Assembly: GCF_000010725.1 (NCBI RefSeq)
Contig: NC_013854.1
Location: forward strand, 2,571,001 to 2,635,000
DNA length: 64,000 bases
From: Azospirillum sp. B510
GTDB taxonomy: Bacteria > Pseudomonadota > Alphaproteobacteria > Azospirillales > Azospirillaceae
Direction: 5' to 3'
In this document: positions 3,124 to 16,381 of the stretch, piece by piece
Layout of the letters: each line of letters begins with the position of its first letter
How positions within the stretch are numbered: the first letter of the stretch is position 1
Translations under genes and position numbers: made by a program
The notes under the pieces: generated by a model
The model's database searches: none
What the model was told of the DNA's origin: nothing
The model's input: only the letters and a program-made list of their open reading frames with translations

Positions 3124-4794
3124 ATGGGCAAGATACTGGTTGTCGACGACGAGCGGGACGTCCAGACGCTGCTCCTGCAACGTTTCCGCCGCGCCGTCCG
3201 CGCCGGCGAGTTGGAATTCCTGTTCGCCCATGATGGGCGGGAGGCGCTGGAGACCCTGCGCGCCCAGCCCGACATCGACATGGTTCTGAGCGACATCAAC
3301 ATGCCCGGCATGGATGGGCTGACCCTGCTCGACCACCTGCCGCAGGTGAATTCGGACATCCGGGCGGTGATGGTGTCGGCCTATGGCGACCTGAGCAACG
3401 TGCGCGCGGCGATGAACCGTGGCGCCTTCGACTTCATCATCAAGCCCATCGACTTCGCCGACCTGGAAGCCACCATCCACAAGACGCTGGAAGCCTGCCG
3501 CGCCATGCGCCGCCTGCGCGACGCGCTACAGGAAACCCGGACGGCGGAGGCGGCATCGCGTGCCCAGGCCGCCCGCATGCGCCGGGTTCTGGACGGCAGC
3601 CCGATCGGCGTGGCGATCCTCACCGAAGCCGGAGAGCTGGTCTATTGCAACCAGCGCTGCACCGACCTGTTCGGTTTGCCCGCGGACAGGCTTCAGCACC
3701 AATGCGCCCCCACCTTGTTCCGCCATGTCCAGGACCGGCTGCCGGAACGGGAAGCCGAAACCGTGACCCTGTCGGCGTCGGACGAGATCCATTATGTGCG
3801 CGAGGACGGGCGCACGGTGTGGATGGCGATGTCGGTCGACCGCACCAGTTACGAGGATCAGCCGGTCTTCATCGTCTGGCTCTACGACATCACCGAACGA
3901 AAGGTCCAGGCCGAGGCCCTGCGCAGCGCCAAGGACTCGGCGGAACAGGCGCTGGCCGATCTGGAACGCATGCAGGCCGACCTGATCCGGGCGGAAAAAA
4001 TGGCGGTGATCGCTCAACTGATCGCCGCGGTCGCGCACGAGATCAATACCCCCGTCGGCACCGCGCTGACCGCCGCCACCCATCTGCAAACCGCATCGGA
4101 AGCGATCATCCTGACCTTCAAGGGTGGCCAGCTGCGCAAGAGGGATTTCCAGGATTACGTCGCCACCGCCAGCGAGGTGTCGACCTTGCTGGTCGCCAAC
4201 ATCGAACGCGCCGCGGCCCTGATCCAGAGCCTGAAGCTGGTGACCGAGGGCAAGGCCAGCTCGCCGCGCAGCCGTTTCGACCTGCGCGACTATCTGTCCG
4301 ACATCGTGCTGGCGGTGCAGGTGCAGCCGGCGGCATCCAGACACCAGCTGGAGCTGGAGTGTCCGCATGGGCTTGCGCTCGACACCTATCCCGGCGCGCT
4401 GACCGAAGTGCTTCTGGCGCTGTTGACCAACGCCTTCGCCCACGCCTTCGAGACGGAGCCGACGACCGCCGCCATCGGCTCGCAAGACGCCGCGGAAGAC
4501 CTCGCACCCCTCGTCCGCCGCCCCGGTGGCAAGGTGACGGTTTCGGTGCGGATGCTGCCTGACGACCGGGTGGAACTGCGCGTTTCCGACAACGGACGCG
4601 GCATCCCGCCAGCCATCCTGCCGCGGCTGTTCCAGCCCTTCACCACCACGCGCCGCGGCACCGGCAGCATGGGGCTCGGGCTCTATGCCGTGTTCAATCT
4701 GGTCACCGGGAAGCTCGGCGGCGAGGTCGATGTCGAAAGCACTGTCGGAAGCGGAACCAGCATGATCCTGCGGCTGCCGCTGGACGCCCCCTGA
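3124..4794 (+). CDS. Receiver-PAS-histidine kinase hybrid
   Basis: A 556-residue cytoplasmic signalling protein. The N-terminal receiver (residues 1-120) has VVDDERD and the phospho-acceptor Asp57 in LSDINMPG. A PAS domain (about 145-265) ends in the DITERK hallmark and is followed by a coiled coil. The kinase dimerisation motif is AHEINTPVG with His305. The C-terminal ATPase has NGRGIPP and GSMGLGLY. The layout (receiver first, kinase last, no membrane segment) suggests it relays a phosphoryl group from another kinase, possibly the one at 1974-2855. A start at ATG 3124 gives a complete receiver and sits 6 bp behind a GGAAGG-like ribosome site. Its receiver is clearly paralogous to the one at 6578-6973. 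Confidence 0.88.
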   Translation: MGKILVVDDERDVQTLLLQRFRRAVRAGELEFLFAHDGREALETLRAQPDIDMVLSDINMPGMDGLTLLDHLPQVNSDIRAVMVSAYGDLSNVRAAMNRGAFDFIIKPIDFADLEATIHKTLEACRAMRRLRDALQETRTAEAASRAQAARMRRVLDGSPIGVAILTEAGELVYCNQRCTDLFGLPADRLQHQCAPTLFRHVQDRLPEREAETVTLSASDEIHYVREDGRTVWMAMSVDRTSYEDQPVFIVWLYDITERKVQAEALRSAKDSAEQALADLERMQADLIRAEKMAVIAQLIAAVAHEINTPVGTALTAATHLQTASEAIILTFKGGQLRKRDFQDYVATASEVSTLLVANIERAAALIQSLKLVTEGKASSPRSRFDLRDYLSDIVLAVQVQPAASRHQLELECPHGLALDTYPGALTEVLLALLTNAFAHAFETEPTTAAIGSQDAAEDLAPLVRRPGGKVTVSVRMLPDDRVELRVSDNGRGIPPAILPRLFQPFTTTRRGTGSMGLGLYAVFNLVTGKLGGEVDVESTVGSGTSMILRLPLDAP

Positions 4795-4886
4795 CCCCCT
4801 CTGTCATGGTGGTGCCGCACCCGGTTCCGACCGAGGGCGCATACGGATGGCTGTGACTTCGGGCTGGTTGAGCGGGAACAGACAGG

Positions 4887-6581
4887 ATGGACAAGCTTAC
4901 CGAGCAGCCGATTCCTCCCCCCCAGTCGGTCGAAGAGGCGCTGGAGAACGCCCACCGTTACAGGGCGTCGCTGATCGAGACGATGCCCGGGCTGATCGTC
5001 CATCGTGGCGGCCGCGTGCTCTACTGCAACACCGCGCTGGCCAATCTTCTCGGCTATCCGACGACGCGCGAAATCTCCGCCCTGACCCATGTGCTGTCCC
5101 TCGTGCCGGAGGATGCGCTCCAGGCCGAGGAGAAGGCCTATGCCCGTTGCCTCAACGGCGAATTGCGGCTGGAGGCCAGGCGGGTGAAGCGATATCGCGC
5201 CGACTCCAGCCTGCAATGGTTCGACCAGTTGCTGGAAACGGTGGATTGGGTCGACGGCCCGGCGATCATGGAGATGCTGACCCGGATGCGACACCATCCG
5301 GCGAACGCCGATCTGCCGCGCCAGGGGCAATTGCTTCAGGCCGCCATCGACGCCATGCCCAACGGCGTGTTGATGCTGGACAAGGATTTGCACCTGGAGG
5401 GCGCGAACAGCGAATATTTCCGGCTGTGGGATTATCCGCCCGGCATGTTCCCACCAGGCACCCCCGTCTCGGCAACCCTGGATTACAATCACAGCCGAGG
5501 CGACTATGGCGACGTCCCCCGGAAGGAGACGGTCGAAGCGCTCAGCGCCAGGCTGCGCGTCAAGGGGGTCGCCAACGCCGAGCGGGAAGTGCCGAACGGC
5601 CGCATCCTGGACATCAGGACCGCCCCTCGGGCCGATGGCGGCTACGTCATCACCCAATATGACATCACGGACAGGAAGCGGATCGAGACCGAGCTGCGCG
5701 AAGCCAAGGAGCGAGCCGAGTCGATCTTGCAGGAATTGCGGGAAACGCAACAGCAATTGATCGTTCAGGAAAAAATGGCCTCTCTCGGCCAACTGACCGC
5801 CGGCATTGCCCATGAACTGAAAAATCCACTGAATTTCGTCAATAATTTCTCGGATCTGAGCGAGGAGCTTTTCGACGAGCTTTTGGAGTTCCTCAACCCG
5901 GTCAAGAGCGGGCTTCCCTCCGACGCGGTGGAGGAAGTCGATTCCCTCATCAAGGACTTGCAGAGCAATCTGCGCAAGATCGGCGAGCATGGCCGACGGG
6001 CCGACCGCATCGTCAAGAGCATGCTGGATCATTCGCGCGGCGGCGGTGGAGAATGGCAATCGGTCGATCTGAATGGCTTGGTCGAGGAAGCACTCGTACT
6101 GTCCTATCAGGCGAGCAGAACACAGGATTCCGGTTTCAACGCCACGCTTGAGCGCAAGCTTGATCCGGAACTGGGCGAACTGGACTTGGTGCCGCAGGAT
6201 ATTTCCCGCGTCCTCGTCAATTTGTTCACCAATGCTTTCTATGCGCTGCGGCGCCGCCAGATCGTCGGCGCCGACCCCGCCTATCGCCCCACCCTGACCG
6301 TCACCACGAGAGGCTGTAACGACGATGTAGAAATTAGAATAACCGACAATGGGACCGGTGTCCCACCCGCTTTGATCGAGAAGATATTCACCCCTTTCTT
6401 CACCACGAAGCCTGCCGGCGAGGGAACCGGTTTGGGCCTTTCCCTCAGTTATGACATCGTGGTACACCAACACAGGGGTCGTTTTGACGTGTCAAGCGTC
6501 GAAAACGAGTTCAGCGAGTTTGTGATTTCGCTGCCACGCAAAGCGGTGGCTGTCGATTCAGGGGAGCGGCGGAAAAGATGA
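4887..6581 (+). CDS. Double-PAS histidine kinase
   Basis: A 564-residue soluble kinase. The first PAS-like domain covers about residues 25-125, the second (PAS_7 type, with MPNGVLMLDKDLHLEGAN) about 150-270. A coiled coil with ELRETQQQLIVQEKMA precedes the dimerisation motif AHELKNPLNFV, with the phospho-acceptor at His309. The ATPase domain shows NLFTNAFYAL, DNGTGVPP and GTGLGLSLS. The C-terminal half has noticeably lower GC than the neighbouring genes. Its stop overlaps the start of the downstream receiver (ATGA), so the two are a coupled sensor/regulator pair. The stimulus cannot be deduced. Confidence 0.88.
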   Translation: MDKLTEQPIPPPQSVEEALENAHRYRASLIETMPGLIVHRGGRVLYCNTALANLLGYPTTREISALTHVLSLVPEDALQAEEKAYARCLNGELRLEARRVKRYRADSSLQWFDQLLETVDWVDGPAIMEMLTRMRHHPANADLPRQGQLLQAAIDAMPNGVLMLDKDLHLEGANSEYFRLWDYPPGMFPPGTPVSATLDYNHSRGDYGDVPRKETVEALSARLRVKGVANAEREVPNGRILDIRTAPRADGGYVITQYDITDRKRIETELREAKERAESILQELRETQQQLIVQEKMASLGQLTAGIAHELKNPLNFVNNFSDLSEELFDELLEFLNPVKSGLPSDAVEEVDSLIKDLQSNLRKIGEHGRRADRIVKSMLDHSRGGGGEWQSVDLNGLVEEALVLSYQASRTQDSGFNATLERKLDPELGELDLVPQDISRVLVNLFTNAFYALRRRQIVGADPAYRPTLTVTTRGCNDDVEIRITDNGTGVPPALIEKIFTPFFTTKPAGEGTGLGLSLSYDIVVHQHRGRFDVSSVENEFSEFVISLPRKAVAVDSGERRKR

Positions 6582-6973
6582 CATTGGGGATTCTCGTTGT
6601 AGACGATGAGCCGGATGTCGAAGATCTGTTTCGTCAACGTTTCCGTGCGGAACTGCGCCGGGGTGAGCTGGCGCTGCATTTCGCGGTCTCGGCGGAAGAG
6701 GCGCTGCGCAACCTGGAAGAAGGCCTCCAACCCGAAGCGGTGCTCGTTCTCAGCGATATCAACATGCCCGGGATGAGCGGGCTCGAGTTCCTTGAACATG
6801 TGAAGGCCAGCCTGCCACAGGTTCCCGTGATCGTGGTGACGGCCTACGGGGACGCGGAAAACCGCCGCCGCGCCCTCGACATCGGGGCGACCGAACTGGT
6901 CACCAAGCCCGTGGATTTCGTTGCCCTGAAGAAACTGGTCAGCAGCGTGATCGAACAGAAGACGGCGGCTTGA
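6578..6973 (+). CDS. Single-domain response regulator
   Basis: A stand-alone receiver of 131 residues with no output domain. The acidic pocket is VVDDEPD and the phospho-acceptor is Asp60 in LSDINMPGMSG; the conserved Thr/Lys switch is VTAYGD and TKPVDF. It overlaps the upstream kinase by 4 bp (ATGA) and is presumably its phosphorylation target. It closely resembles the receiver at the N-terminus of 3124-4794, including the RxGEL insertion after helix 1. The module therefore appears to have arisen by duplication. It could act as a phosphate sink, a relay to the hybrid kinase, or a CheY-like effector. Confidence 0.88.
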   Translation: MTLGILVVDDEPDVEDLFRQRFRAELRRGELALHFAVSAEEALRNLEEGLQPEAVLVLSDINMPGMSGLEFLEHVKASLPQVPVIVVTAYGDAENRRRALDIGATELVTKPVDFVALKKLVSSVIEQKTAA

Positions 6974-7004
6974 GGCCGCGCCGGGACTTGCCCGGCCGCC
7001 CTCA

Positions 7005-8165
7005 TCATCCTTGCGGGCCGCAGATCACGGCGAGATCCCGCAACTCGGCCGCCTCGCCGGAGCAGCATGAACAAGCGGGATCGACCGGCACCGCAAGCTC
7101 GTTGAACTCGCCGCGCAAGCCGTCATACATCAGCAGACGCCCGGTCAGCGGATCGCCAAGGTCGAGCAGAAGCTTGATCGTCTCCGCGGCCATGATGGTT
7201 CCGATGACGCCGGGCAGAACCCCCAGCACCCCCGCCTCGGCACAGGACGGCGCATATTCGGACGGCGGCGGTTCCGGAAACAGGCAGCGGTAACAGGGGC
7301 GTTCGCCCGGAGCGGCCCCGCCGAACACCGAAACCTGGCCCTCGAACCGGAAAATCGCCCCGTAAACGACGGGGATGCGCAGACGCAGGCAAGCATCGTT
7401 CACCAGATAGCGCGTGGGCAGATTGTCCGACCCGTCGACCACCACATCATGCCCCGCCAGCAGATCGAGCACATTGGCGGCTTCGACGCGCAGCTTCCGC
7501 GTCTCCACCGTGATGGTCGGATTGAGATCGAGCAGAGCCGCGCGTCCGCTCTCCACCTTATCCTGGCCAAGCCGGCTTTCGGCATGAAGGATCTGGCGTT
7601 GCAGGTTGCTGCGCTCCACCCGGTCATCATCGATCAGGGTCAGACGCCCGACGCCGGCGGCGGCGAGATACAGGGCGATCGGCGACCCCAACCCACCGGC
7701 GCCGATCAAGGCGACGCTGCTGTTCAACAGACGATGCTGTCCGGCTTCCCCGACCTCCGGCATGGTCAGATGACGGCGGTAGCGCTCGCGCTGGCCGGCA
7801 TCCAGACGGGGCGGCACCTCAACCGGCAGACCGGCGGCCTTCCAGGCGGAAAAACCGCCGCGAACGGAGCGGACATCGCCATACCCCATCCGCAACAGAT
7901 CTTCCGCCGCCAGCAGGGACCGCGTTCCCCCGGCGCACATCAGCAGAAGCGGGCTCGCCGGATCGGGCACGCCGTCCTCGATGCGCAGCTCCAGAAAACC
8001 GCGCGGCACGCGCAGCGCCCCCGCCGGGGCGCCCGCCGCCGTTTCCTCGTCATCGCGGACATCGACGAGAATGGCGCCGCCGCGCTGCATGGCGAGCGCC
8101 TCCGAAACCGCGATCTCCGGGATCCGGGCACGCAACTCGCTCAGCCGCCGATCCTTCAAGCTCAT
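7005..8165 (-). CDS. Rhodanese-ThiF/MoeB fusion (sulfur-carrier adenylyltransferase/sulfurtransferase)
   Basis: A 386-residue two-domain enzyme. A rhodanese domain (about residues 15-110) carries the persulfide loop MCAGGTRS. An E1-like ThiF/MoeB domain (about 120-380) carries the ATP-binding GAGGLGSP, the cysteine of the SCAEAGV segment, and zinc cysteines CYRC and CSCC. MoeZ/MOCS3 enzymes have these domains in the opposite order (E1 first), so this arrangement is unusual. The family adenylates the C-terminal glycine of a MoaD/ThiS protein and converts it to a thiocarboxylate. The start chosen is ATG 8165, 8 nt behind GAGGAG; an upstream TTG at 8180 would overlap the carrier stop. As last gene of the cluster it very likely serves the adjacent carrier. 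Confidence 0.85.
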   Translation of the reverse strand: MSLKDRRLSELRARIPEIAVSEALAMQRGGAILVDVRDDEETAAGAPAGALRVPRGFLELRIEDGVPDPASPLLLMCAGGTRSLLAAEDLLRMGYGDVRSVRGGFSAWKAAGLPVEVPPRLDAGQRERYRRHLTMPEVGEAGQHRLLNSSVALIGAGGLGSPIALYLAAAGVGRLTLIDDDRVERSNLQRQILHAESRLGQDKVESGRAALLDLNPTITVETRKLRVEAANVLDLLAGHDVVVDGSDNLPTRYLVNDACLRLRIPVVYGAIFRFEGQVSVFGGAAPGERPCYRCLFPEPPPSEYAPSCAEAGVLGVLPGVIGTIMAAETIKLLLDLGDPLTGRLLMYDGLRGEFNELAVPVDPACSCCSGEAAELRDLAVICGPQG

Positions 8166-8176
8166 GCCACGGCTCC

Positions 8177-8455
8177 TCAACCGCCCGCCAGGGCGACCAT
8201 CAGCGTCAGGGTGGCACCGCCCGGCAAGGCCGCATCGAGCCCGCCCAGCCTGCGCACATCGTCACGGCCCAGATAGACATTCACGAAACGCCGCAATTCA
8301 CCATCGGTCGTGAACAGGCGATCCCGGAAAATATCCTGGCCGGCGGTGAGCGCCAACAGCGCCTCGCGCACCGTACCACCGGACACCGTCACCTGATCCC
8401 GCCCGCCAACGAAACCGCGCAGCGGGGTCGGCAGCCGGATTGTCACGTCGCTCAC
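8177..8455 (-). CDS. MoaD/ThiS-like sulfur-carrier protein
   Basis: A 92-residue ubiquitin-fold protein ending in ALAGG, the diglycine tail needed for adenylation and thiocarboxylate formation. Family features are the N-terminal strand (VTIRLPTPLRGFV), the GGTVREALLAL helix, and the VNVYLGRDDVRRLGG...LPGGATLTLM end. It starts at GTG 8455, overlapping the tfuA-like stop (GTGA), and sits immediately before the E1-rhodanese gene. Tight coupling to TfuA/YcaO rather than to molybdopterin or thiamin genes suggests it donates sulfur for peptide modification. That role is inferred; a housekeeping MoaD function cannot be excluded from sequence alone. Confidence 0.82.
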   Translation of the reverse strand: MSDVTIRLPTPLRGFVGGRDQVTVSGGTVREALLALTAGQDIFRDRLFTTDGELRRFVNVYLGRDDVRRLGGLDAALPGGATLTLMVALAGG

Positions 8456-9861
8456 GCCTGCATCTCCTCTTCGCACCCGGCCCGGTCGTCCGAAACCGCC
8501 TGCAACGCCTGCTCGGCTTCCGCGGCGAGTTGGCGGACAAGGTCGCGCACCTTCTTCGTCCGCACCAGATCGATCCTCAGATCGAGAATATCCTTGAACC
8601 CATATTCATAAGCCCAGACATCGGGTGGCGCATCGATGCGGCAGGAGGTGTGGGCGAGATGATCGAGGATCAACTCCTCGGTCGTTTCCTGCGACTGCTG
8701 GGCGGTGCCGCCGAAATGCAGCTCCGACACACGCTGCACGAAGGCGGCCTCCTCGGCTATCGCCTCATAGAGCCCACGCAAGCGCAGTTCGTTGAGGACC
8801 GGCCTGGTCGTCCGCGCAAGGAAGCGCCGCGAGATCATCCAGTGCCGCATCGCCCGCTCGGTGGCGAGTTCGGCCATCAGGGCGTCGAACTCCTCTCCCG
8901 TCAGATCATTGCTGCGGCACCATCGCAACAGCGCCTCCGGCGACTCGATGCCGCGCCCCATGCAGAATCGCCGCGCCTCGGCGGTGACCGCTTCGGCATC
9001 CACCTTGACGCCGACGGCTTCGGCCAATTGGCCGGCCAGCAGCCGGCCGAGCGCCGCATTGTTGATCTCGGCGAAATCCGGTCGATGCAGGGCGGCATGC
9101 AGAGCGATATCCGACAGCGGAACGGCGTTGCCGCCATGCTCCACCCGGCGGTCCCGCTCATACAGCACGTCGAAATAATGCGACGCGTTGAAGGCGAAGG
9201 GTGCCGGACGCGGCGGGGTGATCAGACTGGCGAGGTGGTTGAGCAGCGCCTCCGCATCGCGGCGCTTCTGGTCGACCGCGCCCGCGTCGAGAAAGCGTTC
9301 AAGACGCTCGATCTCCGCATCGGTCAGCGCGGCTTCGGCCCAAATCCGATCCCGCGTCCGTTCAGGGAAATAGCAGCGCTTGGCGGCGGTGACCACGCGG
9401 TCGCGCAGATCACCGTCGATCGCTCCGGCGGCCACCGCCGCCTCCAGGCTGGCACGCAAATTCACCAGCGGCTCGGACAAGGGGAGATAGCCGTCTTCGG
9501 GACCGGCATGGGCCAGGGCGACCTCGTCGTCTCCGGTCAGACGGCCGTCGATATACTGCCGCGCCACCTCACCGATCGGAATCATGCCGAAGCCATGGCA
9601 CTCCGCGGCCCTCAGGGCTCCCATGCTCGATGCGCCATAGACCGCGATGCCCCTGGAGAGCGCGAACAGGATCTCCTTGTGCCAGACGGACAGGGACTGG
9701 CCGAAGACACCGTCGATCAGGGCGATCACATCCGGCTGGTGGATGGTCATCGCGCTCAGGATATCGGCCTGGGCGGCCGGAGGCAGATACACCGCATCCG
9801 ACAGGATCGTCCTGGCATCCTCGACGGCCATCGTCGGACCAAGGAAAACACAGATCTTCAT
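8452..9861 (-). CDS. tfuA-like: TfuA-like protein (YcaO partner for thioamide formation)
   Basis: A 469-residue protein whose N-terminal 150 residues are a clear TfuA domain: FLGPTM, IDGVFGQSLSVWHKEIL, GASSMGALRAAE and DDEVALAHAGPEDGY. The remaining 300 residues are a helical C-terminal extension common in long TfuA proteins, with no catalytic motif I recognise. TfuA proteins partner YcaO enzymes in trifolitoxin-type and thioviridamide-type pathways and in methanogen McrA thioglycine formation. They are thought to help deliver sulfur. Start ATG 9861 (MKICVFLG) is set by homology; the frame stays open upstream into ycaO. It lies 26 bp after the YcaO gene and overlaps the sulfur-carrier start. 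Confidence 0.88.
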   Translation of the reverse strand: MKICVFLGPTMAVEDARTILSDAVYLPPAAQADILSAMTIHQPDVIALIDGVFGQSLSVWHKEILFALSRGIAVYGASSMGALRAAECHGFGMIPIGEVARQYIDGRLTGDDEVALAHAGPEDGYLPLSEPLVNLRASLEAAVAAGAIDGDLRDRVVTAAKRCYFPERTRDRIWAEAALTDAEIERLERFLDAGAVDQKRRDAEALLNHLASLITPPRPAPFAFNASHYFDVLYERDRRVEHGGNAVPLSDIALHAALHRPDFAEINNAALGRLLAGQLAEAVGVKVDAEAVTAEARRFCMGRGIESPEALLRWCRSNDLTGEEFDALMAELATERAMRHWMISRRFLARTTRPVLNELRLRGLYEAIAEEAAFVQRVSELHFGGTAQQSQETTEELILDHLAHTSCRIDAPPDVWAYEYGFKDILDLRIDLVRTKKVRDLVRQLAAEAEQALQAVSDDRAGCEEEMQA

Positions 9862-9887
9862 TCGTCCGCCCCCACCCGAAGCGCCCG

Positions 9888-11225
9888 TCACGCCACGCCT
9901 GCCCCGGCGGCCATCCGCGTCCTGACCATTTCGGTGAAGCCGTGCGCACGCGATCCGGCCGCGTAGAAATCGAAACGATAGCCCTCCAGGCCGGGAACCA
10001 GAACCCTGACCACCGGAATTCCCATCTCGGGCTGGGTCAGATCGAAGACCAGGACCTGCGACAGGCCCACCCGCTGCAACAGGCCGAGCAGGACGGTGAT
10101 GTCGCCCTCGAAGGTCGGCGTGGACAGGTCGGCATGCCGGCGCCCATCGACCGTTGCCGGCTGCGCCTCCAGCGCGGCGATTCCGGCGCTGCCATCGGCG
10201 TTCTGGTTGCGGATCATGTCCCTGCGGAAGAAATCGTCGCGGGAACCGGCGATCATCACCAGACGGGCCTGGACCGCCTCGGTCAGGGCGCGGCACATGG
10301 CGACGGCCGGCTCCAGATGGCTGCCGTAACCACGGCTCATTCCCATGTTCCGCACATCGCGATCGTAAACCATCGCCATGTAGCTGGGCAGGCCGAGATC
10401 ATTGGTGACGTCGAACAGCAGGGGGCGGACGCCCGCGGCCTCGAAACGGTTCAGCAGATCGCGGACCGTGGGATGATCGATGCTGGTCAGATCGACCCGC
10501 GGCGTCGGGATCTGGAGCTGGTCGCAGGCACTGCCCCAGCAGGACACCGCATCGCGCTCCATCACCTCGCACAGCCCGGAGACGACGGCCTCAAGAATGT
10601 GATTGCCGCTGGCCAGACCGTTGGTGCCGGCGGCGTAGAAGCTCCGCGGGCCGGGCCGGGCGCCGGGGACGCTGTGGAGACCGACCGCGGTCCAGGGCGC
10701 GGCGATGCGGCGGCCACCGATCAGATCCCATCCCCAGGTCCAATATTCCGGCCTGTCGGGCTGGAAGGCGCTGTCCTTGCTGCCCGGCATGCGGTCCAGC
10801 GGGATGCGCCCATCCTCGGGCAGATCGTTCCAGGCGGCCTCGACATGGGGCAGACGCATCGTCTCGGCGTGATAGCACTCGATCCCCTCCATCGCCGCCG
10901 ACACCGTCGCCGCCACCAGGCTGAAGCCCTTTCCAGCGCTTCCCGCCAGGGTCGAGCTGTTCGGGCGGTGCCCAAGAACGGTGTGGATACCGACACGATC
11001 CAGGCCGGTCACGTCCGCCAGCCTGGTGATGCCGCAGCGGGCCAAATGAGGGGTGATGCGGGCCAGTGTCTCTTCCGGGGTGGCCGTCCGGTGGGTGCCG
11101 GTAAAGAAACGCTTCGCCGCCGTGTATACACCGTCCCCCAACCTTATGCCGGCGGTTGGATGCGGCTGATTGTCAGGAAGAGGGGAGGCATGACCGGGCG
11201 TTGCCGGATTTGTCGAAGCTCGCAT
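9888..11225 (-). CDS. ycaO-like: YcaO-domain ATP-dependent peptide-modifying enzyme
   Basis: A 445-residue YcaO protein. YcaO enzymes activate backbone amides with ATP and then form azolines, amidines or, with TfuA, thioamides. The Mg-ATP ligand signatures are present: AAMEGIECYHAE, the second acidic helix LCEVMERDAV, and the ALTEAVQARLVMIAGSRDD segment. The C-terminus (VPGLEGYRFDFY) lacks the proline-rich PxPxP tail of azoline-forming YcaOs, and no ocin-ThiF partner is fused. Both points fit TfuA-type thioamidation. Start ATG 11225 has a GGAAG site 8 nt upstream. A strong hairpin separates it from the precursor gene. Confidence 0.9.
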   Translation of the reverse strand: MRASTNPATPGHASPLPDNQPHPTAGIRLGDGVYTAAKRFFTGTHRTATPEETLARITPHLARCGITRLADVTGLDRVGIHTVLGHRPNSSTLAGSAGKGFSLVAATVSAAMEGIECYHAETMRLPHVEAAWNDLPEDGRIPLDRMPGSKDSAFQPDRPEYWTWGWDLIGGRRIAAPWTAVGLHSVPGARPGPRSFYAAGTNGLASGNHILEAVVSGLCEVMERDAVSCWGSACDQLQIPTPRVDLTSIDHPTVRDLLNRFEAAGVRPLLFDVTNDLGLPSYMAMVYDRDVRNMGMSRGYGSHLEPAVAMCRALTEAVQARLVMIAGSRDDFFRRDMIRNQNADGSAGIAALEAQPATVDGRRHADLSTPTFEGDITVLLGLLQRVGLSQVLVFDLTQPEMGIPVVRVLVPGLEGYRFDFYAAGSRAHGFTEMVRTRMAAGAGVA

Positions 11226-11285: not shown

Positions 11286-12443
11286 TCAGGCGATGGTGTC
11301 CTTGCCGGCGGTGTCCTTGCCGGCATCATCCGCCGTCGCGGCTTGCGTCTCCGTCGACGGCGTCACCTGAGCCGGCGCGGAGGCCGGAACCCCGAACAGC
11401 GACGACAGGCTGGCGACCGCGGCGGGAACCGAGAACAGCGATGCCGCCTGGGCGGTCGCCGGAACGGCGAACAGCGACGACAGGCTGGCGACGGCCGCCG
11501 GATGCGCCTGCAACGACGCGCAAGCCGCAGGCGCGGACGGCGCCGACGTGGCGGCGGGCGCCGTGAACAGCGACGCCGTCTGGGCGGTCGCCGGAACGGC
11601 GAACAGCGACGACAGGCTGGCGACGGCCGCCGGATGCGCCTGCAACGACGCGCAAGCCGCAGGCGCGGACGGCGCCGACGTGGCGGCGGGCGCCGTGAAC
11701 AGCGACGCCGTCTGGGCGGTCGCCGGAACGGCGAACAGCGACGACAGGCTGGCGACGGCCGCCGGATGCGCCTGCAACGACGCGCAAGCCGCAGGCGCGG
11801 ACGGCGCCGACGTGGCGGCGGGCGCCGTGAACAGCGACGCCGTCTGGGCGGTCGCCGGAACGGCGAACAGCGACGACAGGCTGGCGACGGCCGCCGGATG
11901 CGCCTGCAACGACGCGCAAGCCGCAGGCGCGGACGGCGCCGACGTGGCGGCGGGCGCCGTGAACAGCGACGCCGCCTGGGCGGTCGCCGGAACGGCGAAC
12001 AGCGACGACAGGCTGGCGACAGCCGCCGGATGCGCCTGCAACGACGCGCAAGCCGCAGGCGCGGACGGCGCCGACGTGGCGGCGGGCGCCGTGAACAGCG
12101 ACGCCGCCTGGGCGATCGCCGGAACGGCGAACAGCGACGACAGGCTGGCGACAGCCGCCGGATGCGCCTGGAGGGACACGCAGGCCGCAGGGGCCGCCGC
12201 CACCGAGGAAGCGGCCGTCGCGATGGATTCAGCCGCGAGGCCGGAATTCACCTCGCCGCCCTCCGCCAGGGCGCCGAAAGCTTGGGCGGCAACCGAGCGC
12301 ACATCATCCGCGGTGATGTCGCCGAAGCCGTTCTGAGCGAGAATCGCTTGCTTCCCGGCGGCGTCCGCACCGTTAAGCTGGTCTCGGAAGCCACCATCGG
12401 TAGCAAGGCGCTTAATGAGGTCGAGCGCCTTCTCGTTGGCCAT
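11286..12443 (-). CDS. RiPP precursor: Nif11-type leader with six-fold 44-residue repetitive core
   Basis: A 385-residue protein. Residues 5-55 match the Nif11-like leader family (ALDLIKRLATDGGFR, then ILAQNGFGDIT), followed by ALAEGG at 58-63, a plausible double-glycine processing site. From about residue 85 the sequence is a tandem repeat of 44 residues. Each unit begins after a cysteine (Cys88, 132, 176, 220, 264, 308) and contains SLQAHP, SLSSLFAVPA and ASLFTAPA. The sixth copy decays into a short C-terminal tail with duplicated AGKDT. It is rich in Ala, Ser, Pro and Leu-Phe pairs. AGGAGG lies 7 nt before ATG 12443. Directly upstream of ycaO-tfuA, it is the best substrate candidate. A structural protein is the alternative, but the Nif11 leader argues against it. 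Confidence 0.85.
   Translation of the reverse strand: MANEKALDLIKRLATDGGFRDQLNGADAAGKQAILAQNGFGDITADDVRSVAAQAFGALAEGGEVNSGLAAESIATAASSVAAAPAACVSLQAHPAAVASLSSLFAVPAIAQAASLFTAPAATSAPSAPAACASLQAHPAAVASLSSLFAVPATAQAASLFTAPAATSAPSAPAACASLQAHPAAVASLSSLFAVPATAQTASLFTAPAATSAPSAPAACASLQAHPAAVASLSSLFAVPATAQTASLFTAPAATSAPSAPAACASLQAHPAAVASLSSLFAVPATAQTASLFTAPAATSAPSAPAACASLQAHPAAVASLSSLFAVPATAQAASLFSVPAAVASLSSLFGVPASAPAQVTPSTETQAATADDAGKDTAGKDTIA
11433..12179 (-). repeat. 132-bp in-frame tandem repeat (five full copies plus a partial)
   Basis: Copies begin every 132 bp, judged from the sequence CAACGACGCG at 11511, 11643, 11775, 11907 and 12039 on the plus strand, with a diverged copy at 12171. Units are nearly identical even at third codon positions, differing at few sites, such as Ala/Thr in the AQ(A/T)AS segment. 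This points to recent expansion or homogenisation by recombination. They encode the 44-residue core units of the precursor. Confidence 0.92.
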
Positions 12444-12809: not shown

Positions 12810-13172
12810 TCAGGTGGGTGAGGAGTATGCAGCCGAACCAAAAGCTGACGAGCCATATGCCGCAGACCCAAAACCGGCCGCCGCGAAGCCAGCTGACGCG
12901 AAGCCAGCCGCCGCAAAATAGGCCTCGACGGACTGACCGGACGACTCGCCAGTACCGCTGGCGGCGCTCGGAGAGGTCGCCGCAAGGTCGCCGCGGCCGG
13001 CAACCGCGGATGGCTGCGCCATCGCCCGAAGGTCCGCCGCCTCAACCTTGGCAAAGCCGTGACGGGCAAGCGTGTCGCGCTTCGCCTTCATGTCCCCGCC
13101 GCCAAGAACCGCACGAAAGGATGAGTCGGTAGCAAGGCGCTTGATAAGATCAACCGCGGTCATCGTAGCCAT
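12810..13172 (-). CDS. RiPP precursor: Nif11-type leader with pentad aromatic repeat core
   Basis: A 120-residue protein. Residues 5-50 form a leader paralogous to the other precursor (VDLIKRLATDSSFR here, LDLIKRLATDGGFR there; then LARHGF). A Ser/Gly/Ala-rich linker follows. The core (85-120) has an aromatic residue exactly every five positions: Phe86, 91, 96, 101, Tyr106, Phe111, Tyr116, with only Ala, Gly and Ser between. There is no cysteine anywhere. Start ATG 13172 has GGAGG 7 nt upstream; upstream in-frame codons lack a ribosome site. It is the first RiPP gene of the cluster. The core resembles a pentapeptide-repeat rhythm but lacks the Asp/Asn of that family. Confidence 0.8.
   Translation of the reverse strand: MATMTAVDLIKRLATDSSFRAVLGGGDMKAKRDTLARHGFAKVEAADLRAMAQPSAVAGRGDLAATSPSAASGTGESSGQSVEAYFAAAGFASAGFAAAGFGSAAYGSSAFGSAAYSSPT
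12813..12917 (-). repeat. 15-bp coding repeat giving a 5-residue periodic core
   Basis: Seven consecutive pentads of the form aromatic-small-small-small-small are encoded at the 3' end of the precursor gene. The DNA repeat is degenerate, unlike the near-identical 132-bp repeats of the neighbouring precursor, so amino-acid periodicity seems to be what is conserved. Confidence 0.8.
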
Positions 13173-13322
13173 ACGCGATCCTCCACCATCGAGAGAGCCA
13201 ATGGGACACCACCCATGCGATCCCATCATATTTGCTATGCGAATATAGGATCAAGGGTATTGTTTCCATCAAAACAACCGATACGGATCCTGGTGACGGG
13301 CGATATGACACGGCGGAAGAGT

Positions 13323-14156: not shown

Positions 14157-15769
14157 CCGCCTTTATTCACCAGGGTGGCGAGCGGTCTGGTCGCCGCGTT
14201 GAGATGATCAACGTTGGGCTGTATGGGCGCGCGTCGTCGGCCGCCGCGCTGACGGCGGCGTGACGGTGTCGGAGTTGGTGGTGGAGGGGATTGGGTGACG
14301 GCTGGGGCACGCTGCCCCGGTGCTCAGCAGATGAGCCGGGGCATGCGGCCGAGGGCGAGGTGGATGATCGCCTGATCAGGCGCGCTGGTCGGCAGGTGCA
14401 CCTTGATCTGCGTCTTCATCTCCACGATACGCGCGGCGGTCTTCACCAAGCGCAGCCGCAAGGTGTCGAATTGCACCGTGCGCCAGCGGGAGCGTTTCGG
14501 CATCAGCGAGCGCAGGCTCCACAGCAGCCAGTACGCCCCGGCGTGCAGGAACAGGCGGAACTGGTTGGCCGTCGCCTTGGTGCAGGAGGTCCGGTCTGCG
14601 GCAAGGTGGGATTTCCAGGCTTTTATATGATTTTCCGCCTGTCCCCTCGCGCAATACAGGCCGGCATACAGCCAGCGACCCGTGCCGTGGCGTAGGTTGG
14701 TGACGATGAAGCGGCTGTCGGTGCCCTGGTCTCCTGCCTCGACGCGCGCGACGATGCGGCGGACCCGGCTCCAGGTGCTGGCCCCGTCATAGAATTCCTT
14801 GAAGCGGCGCACCTTGTCGGCTCCGGGCATGGCCTGGAAGCGCGCCGCGGTGCTGGCCTCCAGCGTGGTGACGTGACGGCGCAGTGTGCTGCTGGTCGGC
14901 AGACCGAGCACGTAGTCGAGCCCCTCCGCCTCGCACCAGTCCAGCACCTCCGGGCAGGCGTAATGGCCGTCGGCGCGCAGCAGGATCTCGGTCTTGGGCC
15001 AGTTTGCCCGAATGGCGCGGAGCAGGCGACGCAGGAAGGTCCGGATCTCCGTCCCCTTGGGCCGCTTGGCTGGGCGCAGCACAGCGGTGACAAAGCGGCC
15101 GTTGCCGTCGAAGACAACGATGGGCTGGAAGCCGTACTCGTCGTAATGGGCGTTGAACAGGCGCAACTGCTGACCGCCATGCACCGTGTCGAAGGTGTCG
15201 TCTACATCCAGCACGATGCGCTTGGGCACCTGGCGAAAGGACGCGCAGTAGAGATCGACCATGGCTCGGCCCATGCGCAGCAGTGCGCGGGTATCCGGCA
15301 GGTTCTCCAGGCGCGAGATGGTGGCTTGCGAGCAAAGGTCACGCTCGGACGGCAGGCGTTCCAGGGCCATCTTGAACAGCGGGTCGGAGCGTAGGCTGCC
15401 GGCGTCGTTGCCGTCCTCGTAGCCCGCCGCGATGGCCAGCAGGCGAAAGCCGATGATGTCGGCCAGCGAATGCACGGTGCGCGTTGGATCGCGCGGGTCC
15501 TCAATACAGGCGGCCAGCCGATCGGCAATCCGCAGCCGCTTCGCCACCTCCCGCAGCACCAGCAGCCCGCCATCGGAGGACAGGCGGCCGCCATCAAAGC
15601 GCCCGATCACCGGCTTTCCAGCAACGGGTGACAGGCCGGGCAGCGGCAGGGTATGATCAACCATGGCGGGTGGGCGCTCCGGAAACGGCAGGAGTTGGCG
15701 TCAGCACCCAAATCCTACGGCCGCTCAACGGATGCCGCTACACCCGCCAACCCTCATGAATTTTCCCGG
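14157..15769 (-). mobile_element. IS1380-family insertion sequence, apparently intact
   Basis: A 1613-bp element bounded by imperfect inverted repeats of about 20 bp (14157-14176 and the complement of 15750-15769, 13 of 20 positions matching, with shared CCG, ATTCA and AGGGT blocks). CTAG flanks both ends. It encodes one full-length transposase on the minus strand. Length, single ORF and 4-bp duplication all fit IS1380. It separates the GNAT/RiPP region from the genes leading to glyQS. No passenger gene is present. Confidence 0.85.
14324..15664 (-). CDS. IS1380-family DDE transposase
   Basis: A 446-residue transposase. The N-terminus shows the family signature DGGRLSSDGGLLVLREV. Catalytic acidic residues are recognisable in VLDVDDTFDTVHG, in RADGHYACPEV and in the RGQAENHIKAWK helix. 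The frame is uninterrupted and of full family length, so the copy may be active. The start ATG 15664 lies about 105 bp inside the element's right end. Confidence 0.92.
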   Translation of the reverse strand: MVDHTLPLPGLSPVAGKPVIGRFDGGRLSSDGGLLVLREVAKRLRIADRLAACIEDPRDPTRTVHSLADIIGFRLLAIAAGYEDGNDAGSLRSDPLFKMALERLPSERDLCSQATISRLENLPDTRALLRMGRAMVDLYCASFRQVPKRIVLDVDDTFDTVHGGQQLRLFNAHYDEYGFQPIVVFDGNGRFVTAVLRPAKRPKGTEIRTFLRRLLRAIRANWPKTEILLRADGHYACPEVLDWCEAEGLDYVLGLPTSSTLRRHVTTLEASTAARFQAMPGADKVRRFKEFYDGASTWSRVRRIVARVEAGDQGTDSRFIVTNLRHGTGRWLYAGLYCARGQAENHIKAWKSHLAADRTSCTKATANQFRLFLHAGAYWLLWSLRSLMPKRSRWRTVQFDTLRLRLVKTAARIVEMKTQIKVHLPTSAPDQAIIHLALGRMPRLIC

Positions 15770-15773: not shown

Positions 15774-15931
15774 CCGGTCTGGCCTAAGGCGGCGCGGCCC
15801 GCTAGACACTATATGGCTTGAACGCGAGTGGAGCGATCGATTGCGGCGGAAGGACGGACACGAGGCCCTTTCCCCGGCCTCGCTCGCCGACCAAGCGCCC
15901 GAACAACAAGCCACAAGAACGGAGTATGACG

Positions 15932-16381
15932 ATGTTGCGGTTTCGGATGGCGATCATGGCCCTGGCGGCGGTAAGCGTCGCGACCCTGGCCGGCGCCGGC
16001 TTCAGCGGCGGTGCCGCGGCCCAGTCCAAGCTGGACGCCTCGGGCCAGCCCGTGTGGGACGAAAGCCACAACCAGCGCCCGACGGCGGCCAACGACCGCG
16101 CCCTGCCCGCCGGCGTGGTCACCCTGAGCACGGCGACCTCCGCCCCCGGCCTGCTCGGCGTCTACGCCCGCAACGGCCTGCCCTTCGACATCGTGCTGAA
16201 CCGTGTCGACGCCACCCAGTGCGTCAACATCGCGCCCGAGGATTGCGGCCTGCTCGGCACCGACATCCGCGTCGCCACCGGCGCCGAGATACTGGTGCGC
16301 AGCGTGCGGCAGGCCGACATGACCCGCACCTACGGCCTGGTCCCGGTCTACAGCTGGCGTCCGGCCGTCGCCGCCAAGTAA
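15932..16381 (+). CDS. Small secreted protein of unknown function
   Basis: A 149-residue protein with a clear Sec signal peptide (basic MLRFR start, hydrophobic stretch, cleavage expected near GAAAQS). The mature part is hydrophilic, with two cysteines (QCVNIAPEDCG) that may form a disulfide, and contains LPAGVVTLSTATSAPG. I do not recognise the family. GGAG lies 7 nt before ATG 15932; an in-frame ATG at 15926 is too close to that site. A GC-rich hairpin follows the gene. The IS element ends 160 bp upstream, so the promoter may have been altered by the insertion. Confidence 0.7.
   Translation: MLRFRMAIMALAAVSVATLAGAGFSGGAAAQSKLDASGQPVWDESHNQRPTAANDRALPAGVVTLSTATSAPGLLGVYARNGLPFDIVLNRVDATQCVNIAPEDCGLLGTDIRVATGAEILVRSVRQADMTRTYGLVPVYSWRPAVAAK

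Follow-up and report, generated by a model that had tools for sequence, protein, structure and literature searches.

The operon and its two precursors

This study concerns prec2, a short gene in a 64,000-nucleotide stretch of the genome of the nitrogen-fixing soil bacterium Azospirillum sp. B510 (contig NC_013854.1, positions 2,571,001 to 2,635,000; hereafter the window). It is the first gene of a minus-strand operon that runs prec2, prec1, ycaO, tfuA, thiS-like, and rhodanese-moeB. The prec2 open reading frame (ORF; 12810..13172, minus strand) is a real second precursor beside prec1. It encodes 120 residues from ATG to TGA, comprising a leader (approximately residues 1–53), a linker (54–85), and a pentad core (approximately 86–120). 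A first-pass annotation had described a cysteine-free core with an aromatic at each fifth residue at seven sites (86 to 116) and Ala, Gly, or Ser between them, and the translation matched this description. Phe or Tyr occupies positions 86, 91, 96, 101, 106, 111, and 116, with an extra Tyr at 85. The spacers between the pentad aromatics are exclusively Ala, Gly, and Ser, with Ser frequent throughout the core, and the translation contains no Cys.

When the last 40 residues were shuffled 200,000 times, an aromatic run as long and as evenly spaced (any step from 2 to 8) arose in 3 cases. Tandem Repeats Finder (TRF) detected no DNA tandem repeat within the prec2 ORF. Comparison of the seven 15-nt units gave 33, 34, and 73 differences at codon positions 1, 2, and 3, respectively (21 unit pairs, which are not independent). 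This excess at the third position indicates that the pattern is maintained at the protein level and does not reflect fresh slippage. A longer ORF starting from an ATG at 13229 is present; GGAGG closely precedes the ATG at 13172, and the leaders of the relatives start at the matching point. The AlphaFold2 (AF2) model, built on an alignment of 9 sequences, placed helices at residues 6–15, 17–23, 28–37, and 45–52, with block confidence scores (pLDDT) of 57–77. On the same shallow alignment, residues 53–120 were predicted as unstructured, nearly all with pLDDT below 50 and approximately 40 in the core.

The neighboring precursor, prec1 (11286..12443, minus strand), has 385 residues, arranged as a leader, an AESIATAA junction, 5.9 copies of a 44-residue Ala-rich repeat, and a charged tail. 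At the DNA level, TRF reported the array as 5.9 copies of a 132-bp unit. The gap between prec2 and prec1 holds a perfect 16-bp inverted repeat (12636–12651/12671–12686), found at one site in the genome. As coding-strand RNA it folds with −30.3 kcal/mol (z = −8.0), and it could set the prec2/prec1 ratio.

The YcaO protein (9888..11225, minus strand; 445 aa) matched PF02624 with E = 4.4e-76. Its best NCBIfam family was TIGR03266, McrA-glycine thioamidation (E = 5.9e-65, under the cut-off of that family), with weaker matches to SagD-type YcaO and TruD/LynD. The closest relative in the PDB was MJ1094 (6pe3, E = 1.5e-28); TruD, MusD, and LynD, which form azolines, ranked lower. A second YcaO, approximately 42% identical, lies elsewhere in this genome (G000:C5:17024-18271), where the matched frame contains one in-frame TGA, and nearly every one of the 37 genus genomes has a similar gene.

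TfuA (8452..9864, minus strand) carries its domain at approximately residues 1–215 (PF07812, E = 6.1e-42), followed by a helical C-terminal extension. The protein resembled the archaeal TfuA 6xp8 in sequence (E = 6.4e-29) and in fold (Foldseek TMt 0.88; model pLDDT 89.6). Beyond the TfuA domain, Foldseek returned no fold match for the extension at E ≤ 0.001. TIGR04500 (NCBIfam) was considered for the extension and set aside at E = 0.0019, far below the cut-off.

The next gene (8177..8476, minus strand) encodes a ThiS/SAMP-like sulfur carrier ending in ALAGG, with the terminal Gly-Gly. Its matches to PF02597 (E = 5.1e-4) and NF041918 SAMP1 (E = 5.3e-10) fell short of the respective cut-offs, the former slightly. 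The last gene (7005..8180, minus strand) encodes a rhodanese-MoeB/ThiF fusion (PF00899, E = 4.4e-78; PF00581, E = 1.5e-11; NF006444 above cut-off). Judged from its domains, it is likely to charge the sulfur carrier. The genome holds one further ThiF-family gene.

Conserved leaders and hypervariable cores

The motif DLIKRLATD is common to both leaders, which bears out the earlier proposal that the prec2 leader is paralogous to that of the six-repeat prec1. Across relatives, the leader alignment spans approximately 55 residues. Between prec2 and its counterpart in the nearest relative (G010, YcaO 86% identical), the leader showed dN = 0.17 and dS = 1.90 over 53 codons (dN/dS approximately 0.09), that is, purifying selection; the prec2 leader is therefore coding. 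At E ≤ 1, PF07862 was matched by 16 of 18 aligned leaders, with a best value of 4.3e-7; 13 matched TIGR03798 (best 1.4e-8). The leaders are conserved and, as a group, Nif11-like. The motif [AV]ES[IV]A was found at residues 69–72 in 22/22 first precursors, and the similar TETIA in 2/13 second precursors; it likely marks the leader–core junction. A leader tree over 54 columns had low resolution and did not show a single origin of the second precursors. Related leaders with short, non-repeat cores stand upstream of YcaO–TfuA in Minicystis rosea and in a Gemmatimonadetes metagenome-assembled genome (L057:8434-8703; L056:6094-6369, 6957-7232), and possibly represent the ancestral single-core form.

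A YcaO orthologue (at least 67% identity) was present in 19 of 37 genus genomes (G000–G036). The leader profile scored strongly (E ≤ 1e-19) in 22 of the 41 genomes of the genus, namely all 19 YcaO carriers and three genomes outside the first set of 37. It was strong in none of the 18 non-carriers. Thirteen of the 22 carriers possess a second leader-bearing gene. Matches in G022 and G064 (E = 3e-4 and 7e-4) belonged to a different 64-aa Nif11-like protein and were removed. At class level, the leader was detected at E ≤ 0.001 in 4 of 385 genomes, strongly only in G000 and G036 and weakly in G083 and G235. The cluster was syntenic in 19 neighborhoods, five of which end at a contig edge within approximately 0.7 kb upstream of ycaO. 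A plasmid origin was not adopted, as a search of the plasmid collection with YcaO gave nothing at E ≤ 1e-100.

Leader and core were compared across these homologues, as the first-pass annotation had suggested, and they behaved differently: behind the conserved leaders, the cores are hypervariable Ala-rich repeats, wholly different between genomes. Examples include SAFGA pentads (G026), SAPAMASAGF decads (G025), FGQPASSAAA/W decads (G036), MSASAIETADGRALAPTHVA twenty-mers (G014, G021), ATPATAMPAT (G003), and 25-residue units (G008 group). The first precursor of G036 (L132) shows frame changes within a very long decad array, due to either an assembly error or a real event. PF25296 (Decapeptide) exceeded its cut-off for the G025 second precursor only; it was not used, with sub-cut-off matches in 40/41 genus genomes, mostly in unrelated places.

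By eye, we sorted the cores into 17 types, 9 for first and 8 for second precursors, excluding the repeat-less G010 second precursor. The main unit was a multiple of five residues in 12/17 types (6/9 first, 6/8 second); the remaining types had units of 44 (prec1 of the window), 18/29, 9, 9, and 29 residues. As a control we took 62 other sequences amounting to 1.25 Mb (the window plus 61 loci); they held 46 tandem arrays, among them the prec1 array of the window. The period was divisible by three in 35 of these arrays, and in 10 of the 35 it was a multiple of 15 bp. The excess of five-multiples gave a Fisher p of 0.007, and 9e-6 against an expectation of one in five, values that serve as a guide only, because the types are not independent lineages. 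The exact pentad core is known only from B510, and G026 offers a parallel. On this comparison, the pentad core represents a single sample of a hypervariable repertoire that leans toward spacings of five residues.

The regions flanking the operon yielded further observations. A two-component cassette (3124..6973, plus strand) encodes a REC-PAS-ATPase, a PAS histidine kinase, and a single REC protein according to Pfam, with no DNA-binding output domain among the Pfam matches. Its histidine kinase gene (4887–6581) is found in the same 22/41 genomes as the leader, on another contig in G034. Regulation of the locus by this cassette is possible. Most carriers form one clade according to glyQ, which is 94–98% identical in 19 other carriers and 89–92% in non-carriers (90–91% in the carriers G001 and G003), so the co-occurrence of the kinase supports a functional link only weakly. 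An IS1380-family transposase gene (14324–15664, minus strand) lies between a GNAT gene and the gene at 15818–16381, and was unmatched in the 18 other neighborhoods.

Proposed backbone thioamidation and competing explanations

Several arrays contain long runs free of Ser, Thr, and Cys, extending to 109 residues in G015, 55 in G001, and 49 in G024. Of 35 core rows, 6 contained Cys, and one of these 6 is a misassembled tail. A modification common to the family cannot require these side chains. Azoline formation or dehydration as the shared modification does not appear to fit this pattern, and backbone thioamidation does. For a core without Cys, the first-pass annotation had left a choice between thioamidation with external sulfur and Ser-derived chemistry. 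The former gains from the presence of YcaO, TfuA, the Gly-Gly carrier, and the rhodanese-MoeB protein; the latter is disfavored as the shared chemistry by the Ser/Thr/Cys-free arrays. According to PMC13063428, YcaOs that form thioamides in environments other than high-sulfide ones tend to rely on ThiS homologues and a TfuA hydrolase. With MJ1094 and 6xp8 as the closest solved relatives, backbone thioamidation with a dedicated sulfur relay would be the best reading.

We consider prec2 to be probably the second substrate of an Azospirillum YcaO–TfuA thioamidation operon, in which both precursors would be processed through the shared leader and sulfur would be supplied by the relay. The annotation had also suggested that one enzyme set may serve two cores. 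One co-inherited set does adjoin two very different cores; the action of YcaO on prec2 is what we infer.

In the mechanism we propose, rhodanese-MoeB would adenylate the ThiS-like carrier and load it with sulfur, as expected from its family. TfuA, in the role described in print, would release sulfide from the thiocarboxylated carrier and assist YcaO. Using ATP, YcaO would activate amides in the core backbone, whose carbonyl oxygen the sulfide would then displace. The shared Nif11-like leader, which is conserved and paralogous, would recruit both precursors. The core would need small residues and regularly spaced hydrophobics and no nucleophilic side chain, which would allow it to diverge freely as long as the spacing is kept. 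Our guess would be that each pentad receives at least one thioamide, close to its aromatic residue. An unlinked protease would then remove the leader, and the product may be short fragments or a long polythioamide.

Several observations weigh against this assignment. The Pfam and NCBIfam scans and the syntenic neighborhoods revealed no recognizable protease or exporter among the operon genes. Taken alone, the prec2 ORF falls under the cut-off of every curated leader family, and no PF07862 or TIGR03798 match is listed for it. A second leader-bearing gene is absent in 9/22 carriers, although some assemblies break at repeats, and two of the 19 neighborhoods have no rhodanese-MoeB gene (thiF) at the locus. 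The predominance of one clade among the carriers makes the leader–YcaO co-occurrence weaker than its count would imply. Lastly, G010 retains the second leader, but its ORF stops at 89 aa without pentads, and none were found in any of the three frames shown. The annotation had staked the pentad pattern on its persistence in close relatives that keep the rest of the cluster. This expectation failed in part, namely in G010 and in the carriers lacking the second gene, and the periodicity reappears with other sequences in more distant relatives.

The loss in G010, the presence of the second gene in only 13/22 carriers, and the hypervariable core sequences would also suit a decaying duplicate, whose leader is kept for a time and whose core is a functionless low-complexity tail, leaving prec1 as the sole real substrate. 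We regard this as unlikely. The low leader dN/dS was obtained for the very pair in which one core was lost, the pentad units diverge mainly at codon position 3 with Phe/Tyr kept at all seven sites, and five-multiples recur in 6/8 second-precursor core types under the by-eye grouping. A structural role, with the core forming a pentapeptide-repeat beta-helix or another structural repeat instead of a peptide product, is very improbable. The small-small-aromatic pentads do resemble the pentapeptide-repeat pattern, but neither prec2 nor the SAFGA core of G026 matched a Pfam pentapeptide family, and the AF2 model left the core unstructured (pLDDT approximately 40, 9 sequences only); we rejected this fold. 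Least probable of all is that YcaO works on Ser/Thr (and on Cys in prec1) by azoline/azole formation or dehydration, the chemistry of linear azol(in)e peptides. The YcaO superfamily, the weaker SagD-type and TruD/LynD matches, and the common Ser of the prec2 core would speak for it. It is opposed by the TfuA and sulfur relay of the operon, by the sister arrays and the scarcity of Cys described above, and by the operon families, among which the Pfam and NCBIfam scans found neither an azoline dehydrogenase nor an E1/Ocin-ThiF partner dedicated to YcaO.

Relation to known systems

The adjacent ycaO and tfuA genes with a neighboring leader-bearing precursor constitute the gene set expected for a YcaO–TfuA thioamidated RiPP (ribosomally synthesized and post-translationally modified peptide). 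The family as a whole departs from linear azol(in)e peptides in having Ser/Thr/Cys-free arrays (G001, G015, G024), and the locus departs from them in its ThiF, which is of the rhodanese-fused MoeB type. The thiovarsolins (VarA; PMC6511847) share with this locus the YcaO–TfuA pair, imperfect tandem core repeats, and a cluster without a protease; they are actinobacterial, yield a thioamidated APR tripeptide, and involve further enzymes. The Azospirillum locus differs in its sulfur carrier, rhodanese-MoeB, two precursors, Nif11-like leaders, cores reaching approximately 440 residues, and other sequences. The APR core repeat is absent from the prec1 and prec2 translations. The scans, which for this purpose covered the operon genes and not the remainder of the window, found no thiovarsolin-type amidinotransferase, ATP-grasp ligase, or heme oxygenase-like gene.

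Thioviridamide-like thioamitides are likewise YcaO–TfuA peptides with several backbone thioamides, according to PMC6511847. Thioviridamide-type tailoring genes were not found among the operon genes scanned. These thioamitides have an Ala-rich hydrophobic core, which is single and short, and they undergo further tailoring. The nearest solved relatives of both enzymes, MJ1094 (6pe3) and TfuA (6xp8), belong to methyl-coenzyme M reductase (MCR) thioamidation. The MCR system acts on a large enzyme; the substrate of the Azospirillum locus would be a leader-bearing precursor. The MCR TfuA has no C-terminal extension (217 aa versus 470 aa here).

To our knowledge, none of the four characterized YcaO–TfuA classes that PMC13174530 lists ahead of the one it adds combines a Nif11-like leader with long repeat cores. 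The TfuA clusters of PMC8120280 include Nif11-type precursors beside TfuA in Proteobacteria and Cyanobacteria, with MoeB in the gene key of Figure 4. Azospirillum has 0 occurrences in its main text, and its global TfuA mining may include these loci in the supplements. Literature combining Azospirillum with TfuA, YcaO, thioamitide, or antiSMASH provided no description of this precursor family. Mining of the antiSMASH type would probably flag these loci, so the locus may sit in databases. The gene content points to an uncharacterized Azospirillum family of two-precursor, repeat-core YcaO–TfuA RiPPs.

Beyond the substrate assignment, we put forward a bolder and doubtful proposal, that Azospirillum makes genetically encoded polythioamides. 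These would be long, Ala-rich, pentad-based repeat polymers (core up to approximately 440 residues), with thioamides placed at even distances along the backbone by a single enzyme set that reads spacing and not sequence. If so, cores would be freely swappable between species, and the function of the polymers might lie in metal binding, or in a surface or storage role, instead of in antibiosis. A locus that pairs two precursors with a sulfur relay of its own, and whose cores have spacing but not sequence in common, would test how YcaO–TfuA enzymes choose residues, and it could yield programmable polythioamides. It would also place thioamide peptides in a plant-associated genus.
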